A stretch of DNA of 64,000 bases from Tenacibaculum sp. 190524A05c (GTDB lineage: Bacteria > Bacteroidota > Bacteroidia > Flavobacteriales > Flavobacteriaceae), in contig NZ_OZ038523.1 of the NCBI RefSeq assembly GCF_964036595.1, positions 2,734,501-2,798,500 of the forward strand. Direction: 5' to 3'. The notes under the pieces were generated by a model. That model saw only the letters and a program-made list of their open reading frames with translations. It was not told where the DNA came from and made no database searches. The translations under genes were made by a program, and so were the position numbers. Shown one piece after another: positions 26,653-39,503 of the stretch. Numbering within the stretch: position 1 is the stretch's first letter; every line of letters starts with the position of its first letter.

Positions 26653-27183
26653 ATGCGTAAACTAAGAAATAATGAGTTAGGAAGAATTTCTGTTGATGAA
26701 TTTAAAGAAGCAGAAAAAACTCCAATAATTGTTGTACTTGATAATATTAGAAGCTTAAATAATGTAGGTTCCGTCTTTAGAACTTCAGACGCTTTTTTAA
26801 TTGAGAAGATCTATTTATGTGGAATTACAGCCACACCTCCAAATAAAGAAATTCATAAAACAGCTTTAGGTGCTACAGAATCTGTAGCATGGGAATATGT
26901 AGAAGATACCTTAACGTTAATTGAAAAATTAAAAGACGAAGGTGTTAAAGTATTTGCTATTGAACAAGCAGATAATAGTACAAAATTGAATCAACTTACT
27001 GTCGCTAAAGAAGAAAAGTATGCCATTGTTTTTGGTAATGAAGTTAAAGGTGTACAACAGGAAGTCGTAACTGCATCTCACAATTGTATTGAAATTCCTC
27101 AATTAGGTACAAAGCACTCATTAAACATTTCTGTGAGTTGTGGTGTTGTACTTTGGGATTTGTTTGTAAAGTTGAGAGGATAA
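26653..27183 (+). CDS. SpoU/TrmH family RNA 2'-O-methyltransferase, copy 1
   Basis: 176 residues of the SPOUT fold: motif 1 LDNIRSLNNVGSVFRTSDAF split by short segments, motif 2 AIVFGNEVKGVQQEV and motif 3 CIEIPQLGTKHSLNISVS in part. It should methylate ribose in tRNA or rRNA using S-adenosylmethionine. A copy differing at only a handful of residues lies at 29179, each followed by a TPR histidine kinase, showing a tandem duplication. Confidence 0.88.
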   Translation: MRKLRNNELGRISVDEFKEAEKTPIIVVLDNIRSLNNVGSVFRTSDAFLIEKIYLCGITATPPNKEIHKTALGATESVAWEYVEDTLTLIEKLKDEGVKVFAIEQADNSTKLNQLTVAKEEKYAIVFGNEVKGVQQEVVTASHNCIEIPQLGTKHSLNISVSCGVVLWDLFVKLRG

Positions 27184-27225
27184 GATTTTAAACACACATT
27201 TTTTAAATATTAATACAAATTAACC

Positions 27226-29109
27226 ATGCGTTACATTCTTGTTTTTTTGTTTGTTATTAATTTTTCATTTGGTCAGAACAAGAACACTGAAAAAGATAGT
27301 ATTATCAAAGAGGCATTAAATGCTTATTTTAAGAGGGATACAGTTAAATTAAAGAAATATACAGGGGCTGTATTTAACTTGTACCAAAGAACAAATGATT
27401 CAACCTTACTAGCAAAATATCATCAATACAACGCGTTAAGAGCTAAAATCACATTTAAAAATGATAGCGCTTATTACTATCAATATCAAGCTCTTGAAAT
27501 ATCAAAAAAGCTAAAAGATTCATTGCAAGTAGGATTACGTTATTTAAGTATTGCTGGATTACAAAGAATGAACCAAGACTGGATTGGAAGTGAAGAAAAT
27601 TTAATTCAATGCTTAAAGTATCATGAACCTTTGGCGAGTAAGGACGATCCTGATATTTACATGTATGTAAAATCAGCATATAATATTTTAGGTTTAATTT
27701 CTTTTGAAAGGAAGCGATATGAAGAATCCCTAAAATATTATAGAAAAGCATTAGAGTTAAATGAAAAGGTAGTTAATAAAGGAAGAAAGGAAAAAGGATA
27801 TTTATATCTAATCAATAATATAGGTGTAACCTATATGAACATGAATAATTATGAGAAAGCAATTGAATATTTTAAAGAAGGTTTAGCTTTTGAAAATATA
27901 AAAGAAAACTACCCTTCAAACTATGGATTATTCTTGGAAAACTTTACTGAATCAAGTTTTAATCTAGAACGATATGATGACGTTTTAAAAAACTATAATG
28001 TAGTAATAGATATTCGTTTGAAGAACGGGAATTTGTTTGATTTAAGTGCTGTTCATATTAACATTCTAGACTTTTATTTGAAAACAGGAAATCTAAAGAA
28101 AGCAAAAGAATATGGCTTAAAAGCTCTTGATTATGCTAAAAAATCAGGAAATACTAGATACATTTTAAAATCCTATTATAACTTATCTAAAGTTACTAAC
28201 GAGAAAGAGTCTAATAATTATTTAGATGCCTATATTCAACTCTCAGACAGTTTACAAGTTGCTGAGAGAGATACTAAAAATCAATTTGCAAGAATAAGTT
28301 TTGAAACAGAAAAAAAGGAGAAGGAAAATGCCATATTAACGGCAGAAAATCAATCGAAAGAATTAGAAATTTTAGAGCAAAAACAACAAAAAACATGGGG
28401 TTGGTTTTTGGCTATTTTTAGTTTGTTAGGTCTTGGAATTAGTATTCTGTTTTTCAACTTAAAGAAAAGAAAGGCCGCTTTTATAGCAGAATTAGATAAA
28501 GTTAGAGTTGCTAATAATGAACGTGATAGGATTGCTCAAGAATTACACGACGGTATTTTAGGAAGATTATTTGGGACACGATTTGGTTTAGGATTTTTGC
28601 CTGTAGGAGGAGGTAAAGAAGAAGCCGAAAAGTATGGTCAACTATTAGATGAGCTTCAGGATATTGAAAAAGAAATTCGAGAAGTCTCACATAAATTGAG
28701 TTACACTCCGAGTAGTTCTTCAGAGAATTTTAACGCAGTAATTAATGAGCTGATTAAAGAGAAAAGTACTATTGCTGATTTGAATTATAAAGTTGATATA
28801 GCCAAAGAGATCAATTGGGATATCATACAGAAAGATATTAAAACTGATATTTACAGAATTCTTCAGGAAGCCTTACAGAATATTATCAAGCATGCAAAAG
28901 CAAACACAGTTTCTGTAGCCATTAAAGAGTCCAATAATAATCTTTCTTTAGAAATAGAGGATAATGGTGTTGGTTTCGATGCTTCAGAGCAAGCTGAAGG
29001 AATTGGTTTTAGAAATATGGAAGCACGAGTTAAAAAGTTACAAGGAATTTTTGGAGTACAAAGTTCAAAAGGAAATGGGACAAACGTATTAGTTCAAATT
29101 CCTATTTAA
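27226..29109 (+). CDS. TPR-containing sensor histidine kinase, paralogue 1
   Basis: 627 residues: signal peptide (about 1-16), periplasmic tetratricopeptide repeats (about 60-340, e.g. YNILGLISFERKRYEESLKYY in parts), coiled coil, membrane helix about 391-411, then a HisKA_3 domain with the phosphorylated His in QELHDGILG and an HATPase domain (DNGVGFDAS, GIGFRNMEARV). It should sense a periplasmic protein or peptide and phosphorylate a NarL/LuxR-type regulator. No regulator gene is adjacent. From about residue 350 on it is nearly identical to the paralogue at 29715, while the sensor half has diverged. Confidence 0.87.
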   Translation: MRYILVFLFVINFSFGQNKNTEKDSIIKEALNAYFKRDTVKLKKYTGAVFNLYQRTNDSTLLAKYHQYNALRAKITFKNDSAYYYQYQALEISKKLKDSLQVGLRYLSIAGLQRMNQDWIGSEENLIQCLKYHEPLASKDDPDIYMYVKSAYNILGLISFERKRYEESLKYYRKALELNEKVVNKGRKEKGYLYLINNIGVTYMNMNNYEKAIEYFKEGLAFENIKENYPSNYGLFLENFTESSFNLERYDDVLKNYNVVIDIRLKNGNLFDLSAVHINILDFYLKTGNLKKAKEYGLKALDYAKKSGNTRYILKSYYNLSKVTNEKESNNYLDAYIQLSDSLQVAERDTKNQFARISFETEKKEKENAILTAENQSKELEILEQKQQKTWGWFLAIFSLLGLGISILFFNLKKRKAAFIAELDKVRVANNERDRIAQELHDGILGRLFGTRFGLGFLPVGGGKEEAEKYGQLLDELQDIEKEIREVSHKLSYTPSSSSENFNAVINELIKEKSTIADLNYKVDIAKEINWDIIQKDIKTDIYRILQEALQNIIKHAKANTVSVAIKESNNNLSLEIEDNGVGFDASEQAEGIGFRNMEARVKKLQGIFGVQSSKGNGTNVLVQIPI

Positions 29110-29120
29110 TTCTGAATTTA

Positions 29121-29160
29121 CAGATTACTTCATCCCGAAGTTTCGGGATTCGCAATGACG
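29121..29160. repeat. dispersed palindromic repeat copy (R3)
   Basis: CAGATTACTTCATCCCGAAG followed by an inner CCCGAAGTTTCGGG hairpin and CGCAATGACG. Lies exactly between the two duplicated modules. Confidence 0.65.
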
Positions 29161-29178
29161 TAAATGGTTACTAAAACT

Positions 29179-29709
29179 ATGCGCAAACTAAGAAATAATG
29201 AGTTAGGAAGAATTTCTGTTGATGAATTTAAGGAAGCAGAAAAAACTCCGATAATTGTTGTACTTGATAATATTAGAAGCTTAAATAATGTAGGTTCTGT
29301 CTTTAGAACTTCAGATGCTTTTTTAATTGAGAAGATCTATTTATGTGGAATTACAGCCACACCTCCAAATAAAGAAATTCATAAAACAGCTTTAGGTGCT
29401 ACAGAATCTGTAGCATGGGAATATGTAGAAGATACCTTAACGTTAGTTGAAAAATTAAAAGACGAAGGTGTTAAAGTATTTGCTATTGAACAAGCAGATA
29501 ATAGTACAAAATTGAATCAACTTACTGTCGCTAAAGAAGAAAAGTATGCCATTGTTTTTGGTAATGAAGTTAAAGGTGTACAGCAAGAAGTTGTATCTGC
29601 ATCTCATAATTGTATTGAAATTCCTCAATTAGGAACAAAACATTCTTTAAATATTTCCGTAAGTTGCGGTGTAGTGTTGTGGGATTTATTCGTGAAACTT
29701 AAAAAATAA
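29179..29709 (+). CDS. SpoU/TrmH family RNA 2'-O-methyltransferase, copy 2
   Basis: 176 residues from the ATG at 29179 (an ATG at 29164 adds five residues). Compared with the copy at 26653 the visible changes are few: Ile to Val in TLTLVEKL, Thr to Ser in VVSASH, and a different C-terminal pair (LKK against LRG). All SPOUT motifs are intact in both, so both are probably active. Many of the silent differences are near the 3' end. Confidence 0.88.
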   Translation: MRKLRNNELGRISVDEFKEAEKTPIIVVLDNIRSLNNVGSVFRTSDAFLIEKIYLCGITATPPNKEIHKTALGATESVAWEYVEDTLTLVEKLKDEGVKVFAIEQADNSTKLNQLTVAKEEKYAIVFGNEVKGVQQEVVSASHNCIEIPQLGTKHSLNISVSCGVVLWDLFVKLKK

Positions 29710-29714
29710 TTAGT

Positions 29715-31598
29715 ATGCGTTTTTTTGTTTTTATTTTTTTTACTGTTGCCTTCGTTTTTGGTCAAGAAAAAACTACCGAAAGAGATAGTATTATAAAAGA
29801 AGGTTTGAATGCTTATTACAAGCGAGATACAGCTAAACTAAAAGAATATACTGGAGCGGTATATAATTTATATAAGTCAACAAAAGATTCGGTTTTATTG
29901 GCTAAATACCATCAGTATAAAGCTTTGTTCTCAAAAATTACTTTTGAAACAGATAGTGCTTACTATCATTATTACAAAGCCAAAAACATTTCAAAAAGCT
30001 TAAAGGACTCTGTTGAAGTCGGATTGAGGTATTTGGGGTTAGCGGGTTTGCAAAGAGTCAATAAAGATTTAATTGGTAGCGAAGAAAGTCTGGTTGAATG
30101 CTTAAAACATTTAGAGCCGTTGGCGAGTGAAGATAATCCAGATATTTATATGTATACCAAAACAGCATATAATATCTTAGGATTGGTTTTTAGAGAAAGG
30201 AATGAGTATGAAAAATCACTAACATATTATAAAAAGGCATTAGAACTAAATGATTTAATTGTTAATAAAACAAGGAAAGACCGAGGTTATTTGTATATCA
30301 ATAATAACATTGCCGGAGCGTATATGAATTTAGAAGAGTATGACAAGGCAAAAGAGTATATTCAAAACGGATTATCATTTAAAAATGTAAAAAAAGATTA
30401 CCCATTAAACTATGCATTGCTATTAGAAAATTTAGCTGCTTGTAATTTTAAGTTAAAAAAATACGATGGTTTATTAGTTCAATATAATGAAGCTAGAGAC
30501 ATTTATATTAAACAGAAAAGCTGGGTAAATTTGAGTAATGTGTATTTAAATATTGCACGCTACTATCAAAAAAAAGGAGAAGTTTTAAAAGCTAGAAAAT
30601 TTGCACTAGAAGGGTTAAAAAACTCAAGAAAAACTAATAATAATAGATTTGTACTAGAAAGTTTGAGTGAGTTATCTGAAATGTCAAATAACCGAGATGC
30701 TAAGAAATATTTGGGAGAGTACATTGAACTTTCTGATAGTCTTCAAAAAGTAGAAAGAGATATTAAAAATCAATTTGCAAGAATAAGTTTTGAAACAGAA
30801 AAAAAGGAAAAAGAAAACGCCATATTAACAGCAGAAAATCAATCGAAAGAATTAGAAATTTTAGAGCAAAAACAACAAAAAACGTGGGGTTGGTTTTTGG
30901 CTATTTTTAGTTTGTTAGGTCTTGGAATTAGTATTCTGTTTTTCAACTTAAAGAAAAGACAAGCAGCTTTTACGGCAGAATTAGATAAAGTTAGAGTTGC
31001 TAATAATGAACGTGATAGAATTGCTCAAGAATTACACGATGGTATTTTAGGAAGATTATTTGGAACACGATTTGGTTTAGGTTTTTTACCTGTAGCAGGA
31101 GGTAAAGAAGAAGCAGAAAAGTATGGTCAACTATTAGATGAGCTTCAGGATATTGAAAAAGAAATTCGAGAAGTCTCACATAAATTGAGTTACACTCCGA
31201 GTAGTTCTTCAGAGAATTTTAACGCAGTAATTAATGAGCTGATTAAAGAGAAAAGTACAATTGCTGATTTGAATTACAAAGTTGATATAGCCAAAGAGAT
31301 CAATTGGGATATCATACAGAAAGATATTAAAACTGATATTTACAGAATTCTTCAGGAAGCTTTACAGAATATAATCAAGCATGCAAAAGCAAACACAGTT
31401 TCTGTAGCCATTAAAGAATCCAATAATAATCTTTCTTTAGAAATAGAAGATAATGGTATTGGTTTTGATGCTTCAGAGAAAGCTGAAGGAATCGGTTTTA
31501 AAAACATGGAAGCACGAGTTAAAAAGTTACAAGGAATTTTTGGAGTTCAAAGCTCAAAAGGAAATGGTACAAGTGTATTAGTTCAAATTCCTGTTTAA
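29715..31598 (+). CDS. TPR-containing sensor histidine kinase, paralogue 2
   Basis: 627 residues with the same layout as the gene at 27226: signal peptide, periplasmic TPR region to about 340, membrane helix near 391-411, His in QELHDGILG, HATPase. The gene begins six bases after the methyltransferase copy 2. Differences in the kinase half amount to about ten residues, whereas the TPR half differs throughout. The pattern suggests recent duplication with diversification of the sensor, or gene conversion of the kinase half. Confidence 0.87.
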   Translation: MRFFVFIFFTVAFVFGQEKTTERDSIIKEGLNAYYKRDTAKLKEYTGAVYNLYKSTKDSVLLAKYHQYKALFSKITFETDSAYYHYYKAKNISKSLKDSVEVGLRYLGLAGLQRVNKDLIGSEESLVECLKHLEPLASEDNPDIYMYTKTAYNILGLVFRERNEYEKSLTYYKKALELNDLIVNKTRKDRGYLYINNNIAGAYMNLEEYDKAKEYIQNGLSFKNVKKDYPLNYALLLENLAACNFKLKKYDGLLVQYNEARDIYIKQKSWVNLSNVYLNIARYYQKKGEVLKARKFALEGLKNSRKTNNNRFVLESLSELSEMSNNRDAKKYLGEYIELSDSLQKVERDIKNQFARISFETEKKEKENAILTAENQSKELEILEQKQQKTWGWFLAIFSLLGLGISILFFNLKKRQAAFTAELDKVRVANNERDRIAQELHDGILGRLFGTRFGLGFLPVAGGKEEAEKYGQLLDELQDIEKEIREVSHKLSYTPSSSSENFNAVINELIKEKSTIADLNYKVDIAKEINWDIIQKDIKTDIYRILQEALQNIIKHAKANTVSVAIKESNNNLSLEIEDNGIGFDASEKAEGIGFKNMEARVKKLQGIFGVQSSKGNGTSVLVQIPV

Positions 31599-31620
31599 TT
31601 CTGAATTAAATTCAGGATAA

Positions 31621-31701
31621 ACAGATTGCTTCACTCATTTTATTCCATTCGCAATGACGTTTTGAATTGTCATTACGAGGAAGGATGACGAAGTAATCTG
31701 T
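31621..31701. repeat. palindromic repeat copy flanking the GIY-YIG gene on one side (R4)
   Basis: Begins ACAGATTGCTTCACTCATTT, includes TTCGCAATGACG and GTCATTACGAGGAAG, and ends GACGAAGTAATCTGT. Its ends are inverted (ACAGATTGCTTC / GAAGTAATCTGT). Nearly the same block recurs at 32092-32170. The repeat touches the stop codon of the GIY-YIG gene. Confidence 0.8.
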
Positions 31702-32000
31702 TAATTCGTATGAAAAACCCAATCTTTAGATAAATCAATCCATTCAGAATTCGAAACATTTATTAAACCTTCTTTTCTTTTTCTATTCCCTGATTTTAAT
31801 TGTTTTTCTCTTATAATTGCTTCATTTATTGAATCAAACTTTTCGAGATAAACCAGTTTATTACAATTATACTTAGAAGTAAAACCTTTAAATACTTTTG
31901 TTTTATGTTGAAGAATTCTTTTCTCTATATCACTAGTAACCCCAATATAAATAACCGTATTATTTTTATTGGTAAGAAAATATACATAGCTCTTTTTCAT
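31701..32000 (-). CDS. GIY-YIG nuclease-domain protein
   Basis: 99 residues consisting of one GIY-YIG domain: YVYFLTN...IYIGVT at the start, KRILQHK with the conserved Arg, and the Glu in EAIIREKQLK. Small proteins of this UPF0213/YhbQ-like type are common in flavobacteria, often many per genome. The gene sits between palindromic repeats, with its stop within the repeat at 31701. Its function is unknown; DNA nicking or a mobile cassette role is possible. Confidence 0.85.
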   Translation of the reverse strand: MKKSYVYFLTNKNNTVIYIGVTSDIEKRILQHKTKVFKGFTSKYNCNKLVYLEKFDSINEAIIREKQLKSGNRKRKEGLINVSNSEWIDLSKDWVFHTN

Positions 32001-32022
32001 AAAGATAAATATATATAATTTC

Positions 32023-32058
32023 TGTCATAACGAGGAGGTAACGACGAGGTAATCTGTC
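32023..32058. repeat. short palindromic repeat fragment (R5)
   Basis: GTCATAACGAGGAGGTAACG and GACGAGGTAATCTGT resemble the right half of R4. It lies just upstream of the GIY-YIG start. Confidence 0.6.
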
Positions 32059-32091
32059 TTTTTAATAATTCTGATTTAGTCCTAAACTTAA

Positions 32092-32170
32092 AGATTGCTT
32101 CATTCCATTTTATTCCATTCGCAATGACGTTTCATTCCGTCATTACGAGGAAGAATGACGAAGTAATCTC
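32092..32170. repeat. palindromic repeat copy flanking the GIY-YIG gene on the other side (R6)
   Basis: AGATTGCTTCATTCC, TTCGCAATGACG, GTCATTACGAGGAAG and GACGAAGTAATCT appear in the same order and orientation as in R4, so the two are direct repeats around the gene at 31701-32000. Confidence 0.8.
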
Positions 32171-32292
32171 TAATTTTCTATTATTCTAAATTTATTTTAG
32201 AATCCCATAATGGTTTGATGTTAAAAGTTTCTTGCAGATTGTAATATTTCTGTGATTGAATTAAGAAATTTCTAATTTTTTTTGCATATTTT

Positions 32293-32542: not shown

Positions 32543-32677
32543 ATGAAAAAAATTACTTACGTTCAGAAAACAGAAACAATGAAGTTCCCAGGAGGAGATG
32601 ACAATAACGGTGGAGGAATGACTACCGGTGGTGGTGGATCTAGCGGAGATGGAGAAGGAGGAGGAAAAAAATTATAA
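32543..32677 (+). CDS. 44-residue glycine-rich peptide
   Basis: ATG 32543, TAA 32675-32677. N-terminal part MKKITYVQKTETMKFPGG, then an acidic, Gly/Ser/Asn-rich tail ending KKL. The layout (short basic leader, Gly-Gly, low-complexity core) recalls the precursors of ribosomally made, modified peptides in Bacteroidetes, but no modifying enzyme gene is near. It has its own terminator (32700-32728) and lies between promoter S1 and the histidine kinase. Confidence 0.65.
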   Translation: MKKITYVQKTETMKFPGGDDNNGGGMTTGGGGSSGDGEGGGKKL

Positions 32678-32743: not shown

Positions 32744-34582
32744 ATGCGTTTTTTTCTAATTGCTTTTATTGTAGCTTACTCTTCTTATTCTCAAAAGAGA
32801 ATAGATTCCATTACGGCAAAAGTTATTGATGATGGATTAAAGTCTTACCGCAACAAAGATTCTTTAGGTTTAAAAAAGTCAATTAATAAACTTTATGAGT
32901 TATCAAATTCAGGTAAGGATTCTTTGGTTCTAGCAAAGTACTTTCATTACAAGGCATTATCATATAGGGTGAGATTTCAATATGATAGTGCTTATTACTA
33001 TTATAATACTTCAAAAAGTATTTCTAAGGATATCGGAGATTCCTTAAATGTTGGTAGAAGACTTCTAAGTATGGCTGTAATGCAAAGAAGAGCTAAAGAT
33101 TATTTGGGAAGCGAAATTAGTTCAGTTGAAGCATTACAGTATTTAGAGCCAATAAAATCTTATACCTTTTTAGAAAGTGTTTATAATAATTTGGGTTTAG
33201 TTTCTGAAGAATTAAATCAAGACAGAGAAGCTATTAAGTATTATAAGCAGGCCTATAAAATTAGTGAGTTAATAGAGGACAAATCAAGAAAAGAAGTAAG
33301 TTTTCTTCGTTTTCATAACAATTTGGGCTTATTATATCAGCAGGATAGTATTCATAATACTGCTGTTGAATATTTTAGAAAAGGATTGCAGTTTGATAGT
33401 TTAAAAGAGAAACATCCAATTCATTATGCTTTATTGTTAGAGAATTTAACTTATAGCAGTATTGCACTAGGAAAAAAGGGTTTTGCTGAAGAGAACTATA
33501 ATGAGGTTATTCAAATAAGAGAAAATCAGAAGGACTACAGTGATTTATGTATCACTCACGTTTTATTATCTGAGTTTTATACGAGTGAGAAAAGAGTTGG
33601 TAAAGCTAAATTTCATGCTAATCAAGCATTGGAATATGCAAAGGAAACTCATAATAATAAACGTTGGTTACAGGCACTACAAAAGTTATCTGAACTTTCT
33701 ACAGTAGAGGAATCTAATAAGTATTTAAGAGAATATATGACTCTTAACGATAGTCTTTTTCAACAGGAAAGGCAGTTGAAAAACCAATTTGCCAAAATCC
33801 GTTATGAAACGGATAAAACTGAAAAAGAGAATAAAGAGTTAAAAGTCGAGAATGAAAAAACATTAGCGGAAGCAGAATTACAAAAACAACGTGCAACTAT
33901 TGGTTTACTTCTTTCAGGAATTAGTATAATGTTTCTTTTATCAAGTATTTCATTTTTTAGATTTAGAAGAAAAAAGCTTTTGTTTCAATCACAACTGCAA
34001 AAAATAGAGGCAAGAGAACAAGAAAGAAGACAAATTGCAAAATCTTTGCACGACGAGGTTGCTGGTGATTTACGTTTACTACATAGAAAGCTAGAAAAAT
34101 CATTTTTATTAGAGGAGGCTCAAAAGTTAGAGTTGGTAAAAGATAATGTTCGTAATCTTTCTCACCAGTTGAGTAGTGTGAGTTTTGAAGACGTTCCATT
34201 TAGAGATCAAATTCTAAATTTGGTAAGCGATTATTTTTCTCCTGATTTTATTATAAAAGTTAACGGACTAAAAGAGATTGATTGGTCCGAAGCAAATAAA
34301 TCAATCAAAAGATTACTTTATTTGAGTTTACGAGAGTGTATTCAAAATTGTCAGAAATATGCAGAAGCTTCTAAAATGACAATTAATTTCTCAATACATA
34401 AAAAATCTGTATTTTTGGATGTAGCAGATAACGGTAAAGGTTTCGATACCGCTACGCAAAAAAAGGGAATTGGATTACTAAACTTACAAGAACGTGTTCA
34501 AGATTTAAACGGAACATTAACCATTGAAAGTGAGGTAGGAAAAGGAACTAAAATAATCATCCAAACACCTCTAAATGCCTGA
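32744..34582 (+). CDS. TPR-containing sensor histidine kinase of the peptide/RNA regulon
   Basis: 612 residues: signal peptide (about 1-16, AYSSYSQ), periplasmic TPR region (about 60-340), coiled coil, membrane helix about 384-405, HisKA_3 domain with the phosphorylated His in IAKSLHDEVAGDL (about 435) and HATPase motifs DNGKGFDT and GIGLLNLQERV. It belongs to the same class as the two kinases at 27226 and 29715 but is much diverged. It overlaps the response regulator gene by eight bases, so they form a pair. A periplasmic TPR sensor is suited to bind peptides. Confidence 0.88.
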   Translation: MRFFLIAFIVAYSSYSQKRIDSITAKVIDDGLKSYRNKDSLGLKKSINKLYELSNSGKDSLVLAKYFHYKALSYRVRFQYDSAYYYYNTSKSISKDIGDSLNVGRRLLSMAVMQRRAKDYLGSEISSVEALQYLEPIKSYTFLESVYNNLGLVSEELNQDREAIKYYKQAYKISELIEDKSRKEVSFLRFHNNLGLLYQQDSIHNTAVEYFRKGLQFDSLKEKHPIHYALLLENLTYSSIALGKKGFAEENYNEVIQIRENQKDYSDLCITHVLLSEFYTSEKRVGKAKFHANQALEYAKETHNNKRWLQALQKLSELSTVEESNKYLREYMTLNDSLFQQERQLKNQFAKIRYETDKTEKENKELKVENEKTLAEAELQKQRATIGLLLSGISIMFLLSSISFFRFRRKKLLFQSQLQKIEAREQERRQIAKSLHDEVAGDLRLLHRKLEKSFLLEEAQKLELVKDNVRNLSHQLSSVSFEDVPFRDQILNLVSDYFSPDFIIKVNGLKEIDWSEANKSIKRLLYLSLRECIQNCQKYAEASKMTINFSIHKKSVFLDVADNGKGFDTATQKKGIGLLNLQERVQDLNGTLTIESEVGKGTKIIIQTPLNA

Positions 34583-35252
34583 TAAGATAAAAATATTAAT
34601 TGCAGATGATCACCAGTTAATTATAGAAGGTATACTATCGTACATTAAAGATATTGATAATCTAGAGATAGAAACAACCAATTCTTGCGATGAAGCATTC
34701 TCTAAAATTAAGGTAGCATTAACAGAGACCCCCTTTCAAATTTTATTTACCGATTTAAGTTTTGATAACGCTAGCGAGAACTCAAGAATCGATAGTGGCG
34801 AAAACTTAATTAAAACCATTAAACAAGAAGAAATTCCAATTAAAGTTGGTGTAATTACTGGACATTCTGAAACAAATAGAGTATTTAATGTAATTCAGAA
34901 TTTAAATCCAAATGCATATTTATTAAAAGGAAAGTGTAATACAGCTGAGCTAAATTTTGCCATTGATAAAATGTTGTCTGGTGAAGTATATTACACACAT
35001 GAAATTCATCAAAAGTTGTTGAAACGTGCTTTAATAGATATTCAAATGGATGATGTGGCTATTCAAATATTAAAGGAATTACCAAAGCATCCAAAAATTA
35101 GTAACCTTGAAGGAATTATTACTAAAGATGACGGTAGTTTGCTTAAAATAAGATCAATAGAAAATAAATTAGCTAAGCTAAGAACAGATCTTCAGGCAAA
35201 TAATAACACTGATTTAGTACTAAAAGCTAAGGAATTAGGTATCCTAGATTAA
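34575..35252 (+). CDS. LuxR/NarL-like response regulator of the peptide/RNA regulon
   Basis: 225 residues. Receiver domain (about 1-130) with DDH near residue 11, phospho-acceptor Asp in FTDLSF (about 61), Thr in ITGHS and Lys in LLKGK. The C-terminal part ends in SIENKLAKLRTDLQANNNTD and LVLKAKELGILD, which lines up with the LuxR recognition helix and following segment, although the first helices are unusual. The first regulon operator starts six bases after its stop. I infer that it binds the 22-bp-spaced half-sites. Confidence 0.85.
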   Translation: MPDKIKILIADDHQLIIEGILSYIKDIDNLEIETTNSCDEAFSKIKVALTETPFQILFTDLSFDNASENSRIDSGENLIKTIKQEEIPIKVGVITGHSETNRVFNVIQNLNPNAYLLKGKCNTAELNFAIDKMLSGEVYYTHEIHQKLLKRALIDIQMDDVAIQILKELPKHPKISNLEGIITKDDGSLLKIRSIENKLAKLRTDLQANNNTDLVLKAKELGILD

Positions 35253-35257
35253 TTTTG

Positions 35258-35321
35258 CGGAAAACCACAGTTTAGCTTGCAGATATCCCCTTTCCAGTGC
35301 TTCTAATCTCTTATATCTTTG
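35258..35321 (+). promoter_or_regulatory. regulon operator and promoter, unit A1
   Basis: Half-sites CGGAAAACCACAG at 35258 and CAGATATCCCC at 35280 (22 bp), and TATCTTTG at 35314-35321, 34 nt from the second half-site. Confidence 0.8.
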
Positions 35322-35326
35322 TATCA

Positions 35327-35421
35327 CTTACATGAAACAAATTCTTTAGGGAAGAATTACTGAAAAGAGTAAAAGAAAGACAAAAGACCTCTTAGGCGTT
35401 AAGCTTAGGAGGTTCTTTTTT
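35327..35421 (+). ncRNA. predicted regulon small RNA A1
   Basis: About 95 nt from the predicted start to a terminator at 35396-35421. It contains an AATTCTTTAGGGAAGAATT hairpin with a G-containing loop. The only ATG opens a five-codon frame, so it is most likely non-coding. Confidence 0.6.
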
Positions 35422-35439
35422 GCGTTTAATTTTAGGGTA

Positions 35440-35503
35440 CATAAATCCACATTTCAATCTGCGGAAAACCCTTTTTTTAACCTGAAAATATGAGATAGCT
35501 TTG
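35440..35503 (+). promoter_or_regulatory. regulon operator and promoter, unit A2
   Basis: Half-sites CATAAATCCACATTT at 35440 (left half degenerate) and CGGAAAACCCTTTTTTT at 35462; TAGCTTTG at 35496-35503, again 22 and 34 nt. Confidence 0.8.
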
Positions 35504-35508
35504 TACCA

Positions 35509-35604
35509 GAATCAATCATGTAATTCACGTTGGGGGAAGGAATTACTGTAGGAGATTAGTATTCTTGAACCTCTCAAACGCTCGTTTGGGAGGTTCTTTT
35601 TTTT
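35509..35604 (+). ncRNA. predicted regulon small RNA A2
   Basis: About 96 nt. The stem GTAATTC / GAATTAC encloses a loop with a run of five G, followed by GAGATTAGTAT and a terminator with stem GAACCTCTCAAAC / GTTTGGGAGGTTC and eight T. The only ATG is directly followed by TAA. Shares most features with A3. Confidence 0.7.
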
Positions 35605-35621
35605 GCTTAATTTTTGGGTTA

Positions 35622-35685
35622 CATAAAACCACATATTTATCTGCGGATATTACTTTTTTTCTGAGAGGATGTTCACATAACTTTG
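35622..35685 (+). promoter_or_regulatory. regulon operator and promoter, unit A3
   Basis: Half-sites CATAAAACCACAT at 35622 and CGGATATTACTTTTTTT at 35644; TAACTTTG at 35678-35685. Confidence 0.8.
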
Positions 35686-35690
35686 TATCA

Positions 35691-35787
35691 AATCAATCAG
35701 GTAATTCATTTTGGGGATTATAAATTACCATAAGAGATTAGTATAATGCGAACCTCTCAAACTTTTGTTTGGGAGGTTCTTTTTTTA
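35691..35787 (+). ncRNA. predicted regulon small RNA A3
   Basis: About 97 nt. Stem GGTAATT / AATTACC encloses a loop with GGGGATTA; then GAGATTAGTAT as in A2 and the same terminator stem as A2 with different loop. No plausible ORF. Confidence 0.7.
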
Positions 35788-35806
35788 TCTGATTTTTAAG
35801 GGTTTG

Positions 35807-35870
35807 CATAAATCCACATTTTAAATTGCGGAAATCCCCTTTATTAAAATGTGACTTTAATATACATTTG
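35807..35870 (+). promoter_or_regulatory. regulon operator and promoter, unit A4
   Basis: Half-sites CATAAATCCACATTT at 35807 and CGGAAATCCCCTTT at 35829; TACATTTG at 35863-35870. Confidence 0.8.
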
Positions 35871-35875
35871 TATCA

Positions 35876-35960
35876 GTGATCATCCGCGGAAACATAAGGG
35901 TGAAAACATTTTAGGGGATTATATGGCCTTCTAGAAATTTCTTTTCTAGAAGGTTTTTTT
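35876..35960 (+). ncRNA. predicted regulon small RNA A4 with a peptide-type leader
   Basis: About 85 nt, terminator 35927-35960. Like the leaders of the 33-residue peptide genes it contains TTAGGGGATTAT just before an ATG (35923), but the frame ends after Met-Ala-Phe (TAG at 35932-35934). It may be a remnant of a peptide gene or an RNA acting on its own. Confidence 0.6.
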
Positions 35961-36033: not shown

Positions 36034-36516
36034 ATGAGAGGAAAAGAAGGAATTATCAACTTCTTGGTAATAGTAGCTCTCTTAGGTTACATTATCAGTT
36101 CGGTCTTACTTTTTAAAGAAGCTTTTGAATTAAAAGGACAAAAAAATCCAGAAACTAGTCCTGTTTTAATGTATTTGGCAAGTGCCTTAACAGGTCTTGT
36201 TGGAGGAATAGTTGCTGCTGCTTTTGGTGTAAAAACTGATAATGACGGCGTAGATGCAATGAATACAGGAGGAAGTTCTGCAACTGCAGGAAAAATAAAA
36301 ATGCAGAGAGTTGGCGAATTTGCAATGGGAGCAAACGAAGAGAAACTAAAAGAAAAATTAGGAACGTTATATGCTTGGGCATATATCTTAGTCGGAATTG
36401 CTTCCATTGTAGTTTGGGCGATGTTAAACGCAGATGCTTCTCAAAGTATTACCACCAACGCCACAACATTTATTGGAATGATGTTGGCAATTGTGAGTGC
36501 ATTTTTTAAAGATTAA
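36034..36516 (+). CDS. small integral membrane protein of unknown function
   Basis: 160 residues from the ATG at 36034. Four hydrophobic segments at about 7-27, 45-67, 113-134 and 138-158, with a polar loop rich in Gly and Ser in between (MNTGGSSATAGK). The upstream ATG at 35983 would lie before the promoter -7 box. I recognise no family. It sits between the two arrays of regulon units but has an unrelated promoter. Confidence 0.65.
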   Translation: MRGKEGIINFLVIVALLGYIISSVLLFKEAFELKGQKNPETSPVLMYLASALTGLVGGIVAAAFGVKTDNDGVDAMNTGGSSATAGKIKMQRVGEFAMGANEEKLKEKLGTLYAWAYILVGIASIVVWAMLNADASQSITTNATTFIGMMLAIVSAFFKD

Positions 36517-37933: not shown

Positions 37934-38056
37934 AATTTGAAAGGTTAAAATTTGTTACCTTCCTAAAATACTAAAAGAAAAATTACCGTAAGCTTAAAAT
38001 CTTAACAAATAAACAATCATTTGGAATGTTCATAGGAAAAACCCCTAACGAGAATT

Positions 38057-38121
38057 CGGAAAATTGCATCCTAATCTGCGGCAATCCCCTTTTATTAGGC
38101 TTGAATTGCGTTCTATATTTG
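38057..38121 (+). promoter_or_regulatory. regulon operator and promoter, peptide unit B1
   Basis: Half-sites CGGAAAATTGCATCC at 38057 and CGGCAATCCCCTTTT at 38079 (22 bp); TATATTTG at 38114-38121, 35 nt from the second half-site, one more than in the others. Confidence 0.85.
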
Positions 38122-38173: not shown

Positions 38174-38275
38174 ATGGGAAAGTTATTAATCAAAAAAGTT
38201 AAGCGAATTATTAAGGGGATCGTTTTAACTTTAAGCGAATGGGGCAAAGCTGCGAGCTATGCATTACAACATTAA
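38174..38275 (+). CDS. 33-residue amphipathic peptide B1
   Basis: Begins MGKLLIKKVKRIIKGIVL and ends EWGKAASYALQH. It is strongly cationic (seven Lys/Arg against one Glu) and amphipathic when drawn as a helix. Unlike the other four copies it has Trp in place of Cys at residue 23 and a longer leader between TTAGGGATTAT and the ATG. No signal peptide. Family unknown to me. Confidence 0.8.
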   Translation: MGKLLIKKVKRIIKGIVLTLSEWGKAASYALQH

Positions 38276-38298
38276 AAAACAATTAACCAAATTTTTAG

Positions 38299-38324
38299 AG
38301 CTGTCATTATCGACAGCTTTTTTT
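38299..38324 (+). terminator. terminator of peptide unit B1
   Basis: AGCTGTC pairs with GACAGCT, followed by seven T. Confidence 0.8.
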
Positions 38325-38356
38325 ATGGACATAATTTCAGTTTAAAAACAGGTGTT

Positions 38357-38420
38357 CGGAAAATTGCATTTCAAGTTGCGGATATCCCTTTTTTTAGACT
38401 GTAAAGCTATTATATATTTG
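38357..38420 (+). promoter_or_regulatory. regulon operator and promoter, peptide unit B2
   Basis: Half-sites CGGAAAATTGCATTT at 38357 and CGGATATCCCTTTTTTT at 38379; TATATTTG at 38413-38420. Confidence 0.87.
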
Positions 38421-38470
38421 TAGTGTAATTAATTAGATACTAACAATTAACAATATAAAATAAGGGGATT

Positions 38471-38572
38471 ATGACAACAATATTACTTAAAAGAATAGAT
38501 AGAATTGCAAAAGGGTTTTTAACAGCATTAGCAGAATGTGCAAAAGGTGCTAGTTATGCAATTCAACACTAA
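38471..38572 (+). CDS. 33-residue amphipathic peptide B2
   Basis: Begins MTTILLKRIDRIAKGFL and ends ECAKGASYAIQH. The ATG follows AAGGGGATT directly, a sequence shared by the leaders of B3, B4 and (as AAAGGAATT) B5. One Cys at residue 23. Very similar to B3, together with its promoter, so these two are the most recent duplicates. Confidence 0.85.
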   Translation: MTTILLKRIDRIAKGFLTALAECAKGASYAIQH

Positions 38573-38595
38573 AAAGAACAAACTTAAATTCTTTA

Positions 38596-38623
38596 AAGCT
38601 GTCTTTATCGACAGCTTTTTTTT
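38596..38623 (+). terminator. terminator of peptide unit B2
   Basis: AAGCTGTC pairs with GACAGCTT, followed by eight T. Confidence 0.8.
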
Positions 38624-38654
38624 ATGGAAATAAATTAGAGTAAAAACAGGTGTT

Positions 38655-38718
38655 CGGAAAATTACATTTCAAGTTGCGGATATCCCTTTTTTTAGACTGT
38701 AAAGCTGTTATATCTTTG
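38655..38718 (+). promoter_or_regulatory. regulon operator and promoter, peptide unit B3
   Basis: Half-sites CGGAAAATTACATTT at 38655 and CGGATATCCCTTTTTTT at 38677; TATCTTTG at 38711-38718. Nearly identical to the B2 promoter. Confidence 0.87.
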
Positions 38719-38766
38719 TATTGTAATTAATTAGATACTACTAACTAACAATAAAATATAGGGATT

Positions 38767-38868
38767 ATGACAACATTATTACTTCAAAAAATCGACAGAA
38801 TTGTAAAAAGCTTTTTAACAGCATTAGCCGAGTGTGCTAAAGGAGCAAGTTATGCTTTAAATCACTAG
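38767..38868 (+). CDS. 33-residue amphipathic peptide B3
   Basis: Begins MTTLLLQKIDRIVKSFL and ends ECAKGASYALNH, stop TAG. Differs from B2 at seven residues, mostly conservative. The Cys23, Lys25, Tyr29 and final His are kept. Confidence 0.85.
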   Translation: MTTLLLQKIDRIVKSFLTALAECAKGASYALNH

Positions 38869-38890
38869 TAAATTTAAAATCACGAATTAA

Positions 38891-38924
38891 GAAAGCCGCT
38901 TAACTAAGTGGCTTTCTTGTTTTT
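38891..38924 (+). terminator. terminator of peptide unit B3
   Basis: GAAAGCCGCTTA pairs with TAAGTGGCTTTC, followed by a T-rich tail. Its stem differs from those of the neighbours. Confidence 0.75.
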
Positions 38925-38947
38925 GTAAGTTATATTAAATCTAACTA

Positions 38948-39011
38948 CGGAAAATCACACTTTTAATTGCGGAAAACCAATTTAATATATTGATAATCAG
39001 TTATATATTTG
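38948..39011 (+). promoter_or_regulatory. regulon operator and promoter, peptide unit B4
   Basis: Half-sites CGGAAAATCACACTT at 38948 and CGGAAAACCAATTT at 38970; TATATTTG at 39004-39011. Confidence 0.85.
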
Positions 39012-39056
39012 TGTTGTAACCAATTAGGGATAACAAAAAAACATTATTAGGGGATT

Positions 39057-39158
39057 ATGGGAACACTATTAACTACAAGGATTAATCAAATTTTGAAGGG
39101 GATTATATTAACACTAATTGAATGTGGTAAAGGAGCTGGTTACGCCATTCACCACTAA
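39057..39158 (+). CDS. 33-residue amphipathic peptide B4
   Basis: Begins MGTLLTTRINQILKGIIL and ends ECGKGAGYAIHH. Less cationic than B1 and with two final His. Leader TTAGGGGATT directly before the ATG. Cys at residue 23. Confidence 0.85.
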   Translation: MGTLLTTRINQILKGIILTLIECGKGAGYAIHH

Positions 39159-39181
39159 TCGGTTAATAGCCAAACTGAGAG

Positions 39182-39211
39182 AGCTGCTTTTCTTAAAAGC
39201 AGCTTTTTTTT
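39182..39211 (+). terminator. terminator of peptide unit B4
   Basis: AGCTGCTTTT pairs with AAAAGCAGCT over a short loop, then eight T. Confidence 0.82.
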
Positions 39212-39231
39212 ATTTGAAAATCAATAAATTA

Positions 39232-39295
39232 CGGAAAAATGCATTTTTTATTGCGGAAATCCCTTTTTTTAAATTAATAATCCTGTCTATCTTTG
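39232..39295 (+). promoter_or_regulatory. regulon operator and promoter, peptide unit B5
   Basis: Half-sites CGGAAAAATGCATTTTT at 39232 and CGGAAATCCCTTTTTTT at 39254; TATCTTTG at 39288-39295. Confidence 0.87.
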
Positions 39296-39344
39296 AATTG
39301 TAACGTTTAAAACACTGCTAGTCAGTAATATAAATAAAGGAATT

Positions 39345-39446
39345 ATGACAACAATATTACTTAAAAGATTAGATCAAATTATAAAGAGCTTATTAGTGAC
39401 TTTAATTGAGTGCGCAAAAGGCGCAAGCTACGCTTTAAATCACTAA
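39345..39446 (+). CDS. 33-residue amphipathic peptide B5
   Basis: Begins MTTILLKRLDQIIKSLL and ends ECAKGASYALNH. N- and C-terminal parts follow B2/B3 while the centre (DQII, LIEC) follows B4, so it looks intermediate. Leader TAAAGGAATT before the ATG. Confidence 0.85.
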   Translation: MTTILLKRLDQIIKSLLVTLIECAKGASYALNH

Positions 39447-39478: not shown

Positions 39479-39503
39479 AAGCTGCCACTTGGCAGCTTTT
39501 TTA
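39479..39503. terminator. terminator of peptide unit B5
   Basis: AAGCTGCC pairs with GGCAGCTT over a four-base loop, then T-run. It is placed at the end of the convergent acyl-CoA dehydrogenase gene and overlaps its stop region. Confidence 0.8.

Follow-up and report, generated by a model that had tools for sequence, protein, structure and literature searches.

In a 64,000-nucleotide stretch of the Tenacibaculum sp. 190524A05c genome (4.13 Mb, single contig), referred to here as the window, an array of five open reading frames (ORFs) encodes a family of 33-residue peptides that, together with four small RNAs (sRNAs), very probably forms a single regulon of nine units behind a two-component system. 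The five 33-codon ORFs are real genes, not chance occurrences. Sequence comparison establishes this along with the operator, promoter and terminator anatomy of the units, the conservation of the array behind its regulator and an RNA motif common to both kinds of transcript. We further propose, with about even confidence in the whole chain from regulator to titration, that the locus operates in a Gac/Rsm-like manner.

The peptides had been singled out in an earlier note, made from the letters of the window, as a family of fixed length that is under protein-level selection and forms an amphipathic helix, and these parts of its reading stand. Each of the five copies is an ATG-initiated ORF of exactly 33 codons (coordinates below), and alignment returned the same eleven invariant residues the note had named (M1, L5, I12, K14, L20, E22, K25, A27, Y29, A30 and H33), with Cys at position 23 in four copies and Trp in the fifth. 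Among the five window copies, pairwise nonsynonymous divergence (dN) was 0.13-0.39 and synonymous divergence (dS) ranged from 0.63 to saturated; when close pairs, defined as those sharing at least 26 of 33 identical residues, were pooled, dN/dS was 0.13 (dN 0.060, dS 0.455) rather than near 1, as selection on the protein had led the note to expect. A whole-genome search recovered the five array peptides at E values from 1e-20 to 1e-22, and three further copies unlinked to them. Homologues, whose absence from related genomes the note had named as refuting its reading, are present in approximately 14 further Tenacibaculum genomes, some as tandem arrays; T. skagerrakense DSM 14836 has the same array. 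We gathered 61 distinct peptides, nearly all of exactly 33 residues. Across 397 Flavobacteriaceae genomes the peptide was found in Tenacibaculum only, plus one weak match in another genus (MTFLFKNWAAKRARLLVLLEECAKASSYAIHR), a distant 32-residue homologue (L213, G215:C1:2874979) whose leader lacks GGGA. No Pfam or NCBIfam model matched the peptides tested.

Alpha-helical amphipathicity over residues 4-24 exceeded that of shuffled sequences (p<0.05) in 50 of 55 peptides, with two of the five window copies falling above this threshold (p=0.116 and p=0.051). The helix is cationic as well as amphipathic, the net charge of the peptides being +2 to +6, and the absence of a signal peptide that the note had claimed was borne out. 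M1, L20, A27, Y29 and A30 never vary in 55 different 33-mers, and position 33 is His in 48 of these.

The note's reading was nevertheless incomplete, as it missed that the copies are separate units, that ORF-less RNAs and a two-component system belong to the same locus, and that an RNA motif links them. The peptide copies recur every 284-300 bp, each as a complete transcription unit. Each unit has a putative operator, in which two TGCGGAAATCC-like repeats lie at a distance of 22 bp, and a TAnnTTTG promoter box follows it at a constant interval; a leader of approximately 50 nt precedes the ORF, behind which comes an intrinsic terminator. The array has five such terminators versus 0.8 expected. 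The operators listed here were matched by both a pattern and a position weight matrix (PWM), and the peptides were assigned by ORF and alignment:

38055..38088, + strand: operator of peptide unit 1; promoter box TATATTTG at 38114-38121
38174..38275, + strand: peptide 1, MGKLLIKKVKRIIKGIVLTLSEWGKAASYALQH; terminator 38297-38327
38355..38388, + strand: operator of peptide unit 2
38471..38572, + strand: peptide 2, MTTILLKRIDRIAKGFLTALAECAKGASYAIQH; leader AAGGGGATT-ATG; terminator 38595-38623
38653..38686, + strand: operator of peptide unit 3
38767..38868, + strand: peptide 3, MTTLLLQKIDRIVKSFLTALAECAKGASYALNH; terminator 38888-38924
38946..38979, + strand: operator of peptide unit 4
39057..39158, + strand: peptide 4, MGTLLTTRINQILKGIILTLIECGKGAGYAIHH; terminator 39177-39215
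39230..39263, + strand: operator of peptide unit 5
39345..39446, + strand: peptide 5, MTTILLKRLDQIIKSLLVTLIECAKGASYALNH; leader AAAGGAATT in place of GGGA; terminator 39479-39503

The interval that separates the response-regulator gene from a membrane-protein gene contains, at 35256-35960 and 2.1 kb upstream of the peptide array, four units that carry the peptide-type operator, promoter and terminator without an ORF:

35256..35289, + strand: operator of sRNA unit 1 (PWM 35.0)
35327..35421, ends approximate, + strand: sRNA 1, type I, AATTC-TTTAGGGAA-GAATT hairpin, terminator
35438..35471, + strand: operator of sRNA unit 2 (PWM 39.2)
35509..35604, ends approximate, + strand: sRNA 2, GGGGGAAGG motif, terminator
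35620..35653, + strand: operator of sRNA unit 3 (PWM 31.6)
35691..35787, ends approximate, + strand: sRNA 3, hairpin around TTTTGGGGATTAT, terminator
35805..35838, + strand: operator of sRNA unit 4 (PWM 45.1)
35876..35960, + strand: sRNA 4, type II, 5' hairpin, unpaired CATTTTAGGGGATTAT, terminator; covariance-model match in its own genome at E 4.9e-9

Type I sRNAs carry TTTAGGGAA or TTGGGGAAA within or beside an AATTC/GAATT hairpin, and type II sRNAs consist of a variable 5' hairpin followed by an unpaired ATTTWAGGGGA stretch and then the terminator. Because hairpin 1 varies in sequence and length, RNAalifold retained the terminator stem only, and the sRNA covariance model thus served mainly as a sequence profile. 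A search of Rfam returned no match at a family's gathering score and two weak hits. Weak covariance-model matches at L205, L208, L214 and L215 were set aside, as they resemble ordinary terminators. Directly 3' of the sRNA units, 36034-36516 encodes a conserved 160-residue membrane protein that is also found in T. skagerrakense (L070).

The two-component system precedes these units, with a small Gly-rich peptide at its head:

32543..32677, + strand: 44-residue Gly-rich peptide containing a PGG junction (MKKITYVQKTETMKFPGG/DDNNGGG...), encoded immediately 5' of the kinase gene
32744..34582, + strand: sensor histidine kinase; signal-peptide-like N-terminus, TPR repeats, transmembrane segment, HisKA_3-like region (a match below the Pfam cut-off), HATPase_c (Pfam), conserved synteny
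34575..35252, + strand: NarL/FixJ-type response regulator; Response_reg (Pfam), divergent C-terminal helix-turn-helix

Judging from the N-terminus and transmembrane segment, the kinase TPR region is probably located outside the cytoplasm. TPR domains often bind peptides, which makes the Gly-rich peptide a reasonable candidate for a secreted kinase ligand; in most Tenacibaculum loci, and in many of those from Polaribacter, Gly-rich peptides are encoded at the equivalent position. Residues D11, D12, D60 and K118 of the regulator are invariant across 31 aligned relatives, and its structural model (predicted local distance difference test score 88) has as best full-length fold matches spr1814, RcsB and LiaR of the NarL family. 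A LytTR operator, guessed from the direct repeats, was dropped because the regulator fold is NarL-like. Further upstream, 26653-31598 holds tandem duplicated pairs of a TrmH-like methyltransferase and a TPR kinase with no partner regulator seen, and short intergenic repeats like cattccattcgcaatgacgt lie between kinase genes at 31620-32200.

Within the window the operator PWM identified nine sites, each in front of one of the nine units, and strict operator patterns matched genome-wide at this locus only. We then turn to 69 loci with regulator orthologues (at least 58% identity; Tenacibaculum, Polaribacter and close relatives), where an operator lies no more than 120 nt past the regulator stop codon in 62, and the promoter box follows at fixed spacing in 55 of these 62; control DNA from the same loci (1.22 Mb, both strands) yielded 2 operator matches. 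Synteny is conserved in the order MutS, TrmH, kinase, regulator, array, acyl-CoA dehydrogenase and RnpA. Both kinds of unit occur in 23 Tenacibaculum loci, while behind the regulator of Polaribacter-group loci there are sRNA units only, and the fish-associated T. finnmarkense, T. dicentrarchi and T. piscium keep the RNA branch with no peptide unit seen at that place. Several Tenacibaculum carry an unlinked second sRNA gene of the same type and with the same operator (L197-L200, L202, L207), behind a 121-residue protein (MEVIGKIKLINETQTFGSNGFRKRE...), and in one genome (G416) operator-bearing peptide units lie approximately 70 kb away from the regulator. The link between regulator and operator is therefore more than proximity, and the regulator is predicted to bind this element.

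Two observations outside the array concern upstream elements. A looser site (L062, G000:C1:2848436 onward; PWM 32.2) precedes a 77-residue double-glycine-leader peptide (MIRNIKNLGSVLNRKDQKKITGG...) without a clear promoter box. Single-copy peptide genes (L084, L085, L088, L089, L071, L076 and L082) occupy a conserved chromosomal place, and several of them have a different, AAAAAGGGGTAAAATCC-like upstream element in common, which suggests another regulator of the same family.

Both kinds of transcript carry an AGGGGA-type motif. In the window array, GGGA or GGGG (AGGGGA or close variants) is present in the sRNAs and in four of the five peptide leaders and is predicted to be mostly unpaired. More broadly, GGGA occurs in 59 of 66 distinct peptide leaders versus 27 of 960 upstream regions of ordinary long ORFs, and in most peptide mRNAs it spans the start codon too. 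Many peptide leaders resemble type II sRNAs in placing a 5' hairpin before the motif, and among 28 aligned type II sequences conservation outside the terminator T-run is concentrated mainly in the AGGGG block. GGGR is present in 31 of 31 Tenacibaculum type I sRNAs, in 94% of type II and in 88% of Polaribacter-type sRNAs, compared with 46%, 75% and 43% of the respective dinucleotide shuffles, a conservative control because GG steps are preserved; the mean unpaired probability of the motif in sRNAs is 0.59-0.76. Unlinked peptide copies with operator-less promoters retain the motif, which marks it as belonging to the RNA and not to the promoter. We rejected a Shine-Dalgarno reading of AGGGG because its distance to the AUG ranges from 3 to approximately 30 nt and its unvarying part is GGG instead of GGAGG. 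At L179 (G000:C1:795059), AGGGGATTAT is located past the end of an unrelated ORF, ahead of its terminator, and may be a 3' untranslated-region member of the motif set.

Taken as a circuit, the TPR sensor kinase and NarL-type regulator would control the nine small units, with the phosphorylated regulator binding, ahead of every unit, the two TGCGGAAATCC repeats (22 bp apart) and activating four short non-coding RNAs and five mRNAs for cationic amphipathic peptides. The AGGGGA-type motif would most likely be the site of an undescribed RNA-binding translational regulator, and the sRNAs and peptide leaders would act as decoys that titrate this protein and free its targets, including the peptides' own start regions, by the same overall logic as GacS/GacA-RsmXYZ. 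In Pseudomonas aeruginosa, the effects of the Gac system pass almost exclusively through RsmY and RsmZ, whose target for titration is RsmA, a GGA-binding protein (PMC2904497). By sequence, the present locus resembles GacS/GacA-RsmX/Y/Z in having a NarL-type regulator whose recognised regulon is mainly sRNAs with exposed G-rich motifs and one conserved upstream element. It differs in that the GacA upstream activating sequence is a palindrome, TGTAAGCATTCTCTTACA (TGTAAG-N6-CTTACA; PMC4353343), as opposed to the direct repeats seen here, and in that the kinase is of the TPR/HisKA_3 type and encoded beside the RNAs, and the regulator is predicted to drive peptide mRNAs as well. A convergent system of this type in Tenacibaculum and Polaribacter, in which multi-copy decoy RNAs titrate an AGGGGA-binding protein and, in Tenacibaculum, a decoy joined to an ORF serves as decoy and mRNA at once, has in our judgment slightly less than an even chance of being correct.

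Several points weigh against this proposal. Unlike the Gac/Rsm systems of Gammaproteobacteria, no CsrA/RsmA was found here: CsrA (PF02599) was detected in none of the 20 genomes searched (this one and 19 relatives), in which positive controls were found, and no RRM_1 protein was detected in this genome, so the locus is not a member of the Gac/Rsm family and would be a functional analogue. There are usually one or two exposed motifs per RNA, fewer than in RsmY/RsmZ. The enrichment of the motif in type II sRNAs over dinucleotide shuffles is modest (0.94 versus 0.75), leaders of the clade's own MTT type have no clear 5' hairpin, and the peptide 5 leader lacks GGGA (AAAGGAATT). Finally, the operator is assigned by position and conservation, and its PWM was trained on the same loci that were later scored, with the control regions kept out of training.

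The function of the peptide is the weakest point of the proposal. Most likely it lies on the membrane surface via its amphipathic helix and offers its C-terminus, GKGASYALxH, to a partner; the helix argues for the membrane surface and the conserved C-terminus for a specific partner, and we give this placement somewhat less than even odds. A double-glycine leader reading of GKGA/SYAL was rejected on inspection, since the positions misfit the usual leader pattern.

The exposed, conserved motif would also suit a seed, and the sRNAs may instead be trans-acting antisense RNAs that pair through AGGGGA with C-rich mRNA sites, the peptides being merely co-regulated. A precedent is the conserved flavobacterial sRNA Rfp18 of Flavobacterium psychrophilum, which affects protease mRNA levels, with predicted pairing, and has a deletion phenotype (PMC9723704). 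The relevant passages on Rfp18 name no adjacent two-component system, unlike the situation here. We consider this explanation unlikely, as a seed does not predict the same-sense motif in peptide leaders, including those of unlinked operator-less copies. RcsB-RprA offers a comparable case, in which a NarL-family regulator, among the closest folds to ours and with a structure solved on the rprA sRNA promoter, controls an sRNA; RprA is a base-pairing sRNA, and that system, unlike this locus, has no array and no peptides. Alternatively, the motif may be a stability or translation-enhancing element of highly expressed short RNAs that are simply co-expressed, without titration. Such a role would fit a motif that almost every sRNA and peptide unit carries, but it leaves unexplained why peptide-less Polaribacter-group loci keep motif RNAs and why the sRNA copies are multiplied, and we regard it as improbable.

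The staphylococcal agr system has one response regulator that directly induces a regulatory RNA (RNAIII/delta-toxin) and amphipathic PSM peptides without a signal peptide. The present locus likewise appears to place RNAs and short amphipathic peptides without a signal peptide under a single regulator, and a corresponding quorum control would have the Gly-rich peptide as signal, the kinase as receptor and secreted, surface-active 33-mers as effectors. The cationic amphipathic helix, the multiple copies, the lack of a signal peptide and the Gly-rich PGG peptide adjoining the kinase all agree with such an arrangement, which is compatible with the Gac/Rsm-like circuit. However, AgrA is of the LytTR type and the regulator here of the NarL type, the peptides are constant in length, with a strict C-terminus, and belong to another phylum, no AgrB/AgrD-like gene was recognised in the ORF list of the locus, and the stretch from MutS to the acyl-CoA dehydrogenase has no recognised exporter, whereas PSMs are secreted by a dedicated ABC exporter. 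The fixed A27, Y29 and A30 in all 55 33-mers also suggest a specific partner rather than detergent action, and we assign quorum control a low probability. Type I toxin-antitoxin arrays, with peptides as toxins and ORF-less RNAs as antitoxins, would account for short amphipathic peptides in tandem near small RNAs but are very improbable, because the sRNAs lack complementarity to the peptide mRNAs (with mononucleotide-shuffled mRNA the duplex energies are as good and often better), both RNA kinds have the same-sense motif in common, and Polaribacter-group loci hold RNAs without peptide units.

Our literature search, limited to open-access papers, turned up no account of this array. Little is known of post-transcriptional control in Bacteroidota, and Bacteroides lacks an obvious homologue of Hfq or ProQ (PMC7366714). 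The locus supplies a well-delimited group of RNAs together with their probable operator, a motif that can serve as bait for an RNA-binding protein and a family of small proteins with a testable C-terminal signature. Moreover, multiplied and single-copy relatives in many species permit evolutionary tests, for example of whether peptide genes may have arisen by insertion of an ORF into an sRNA gene.
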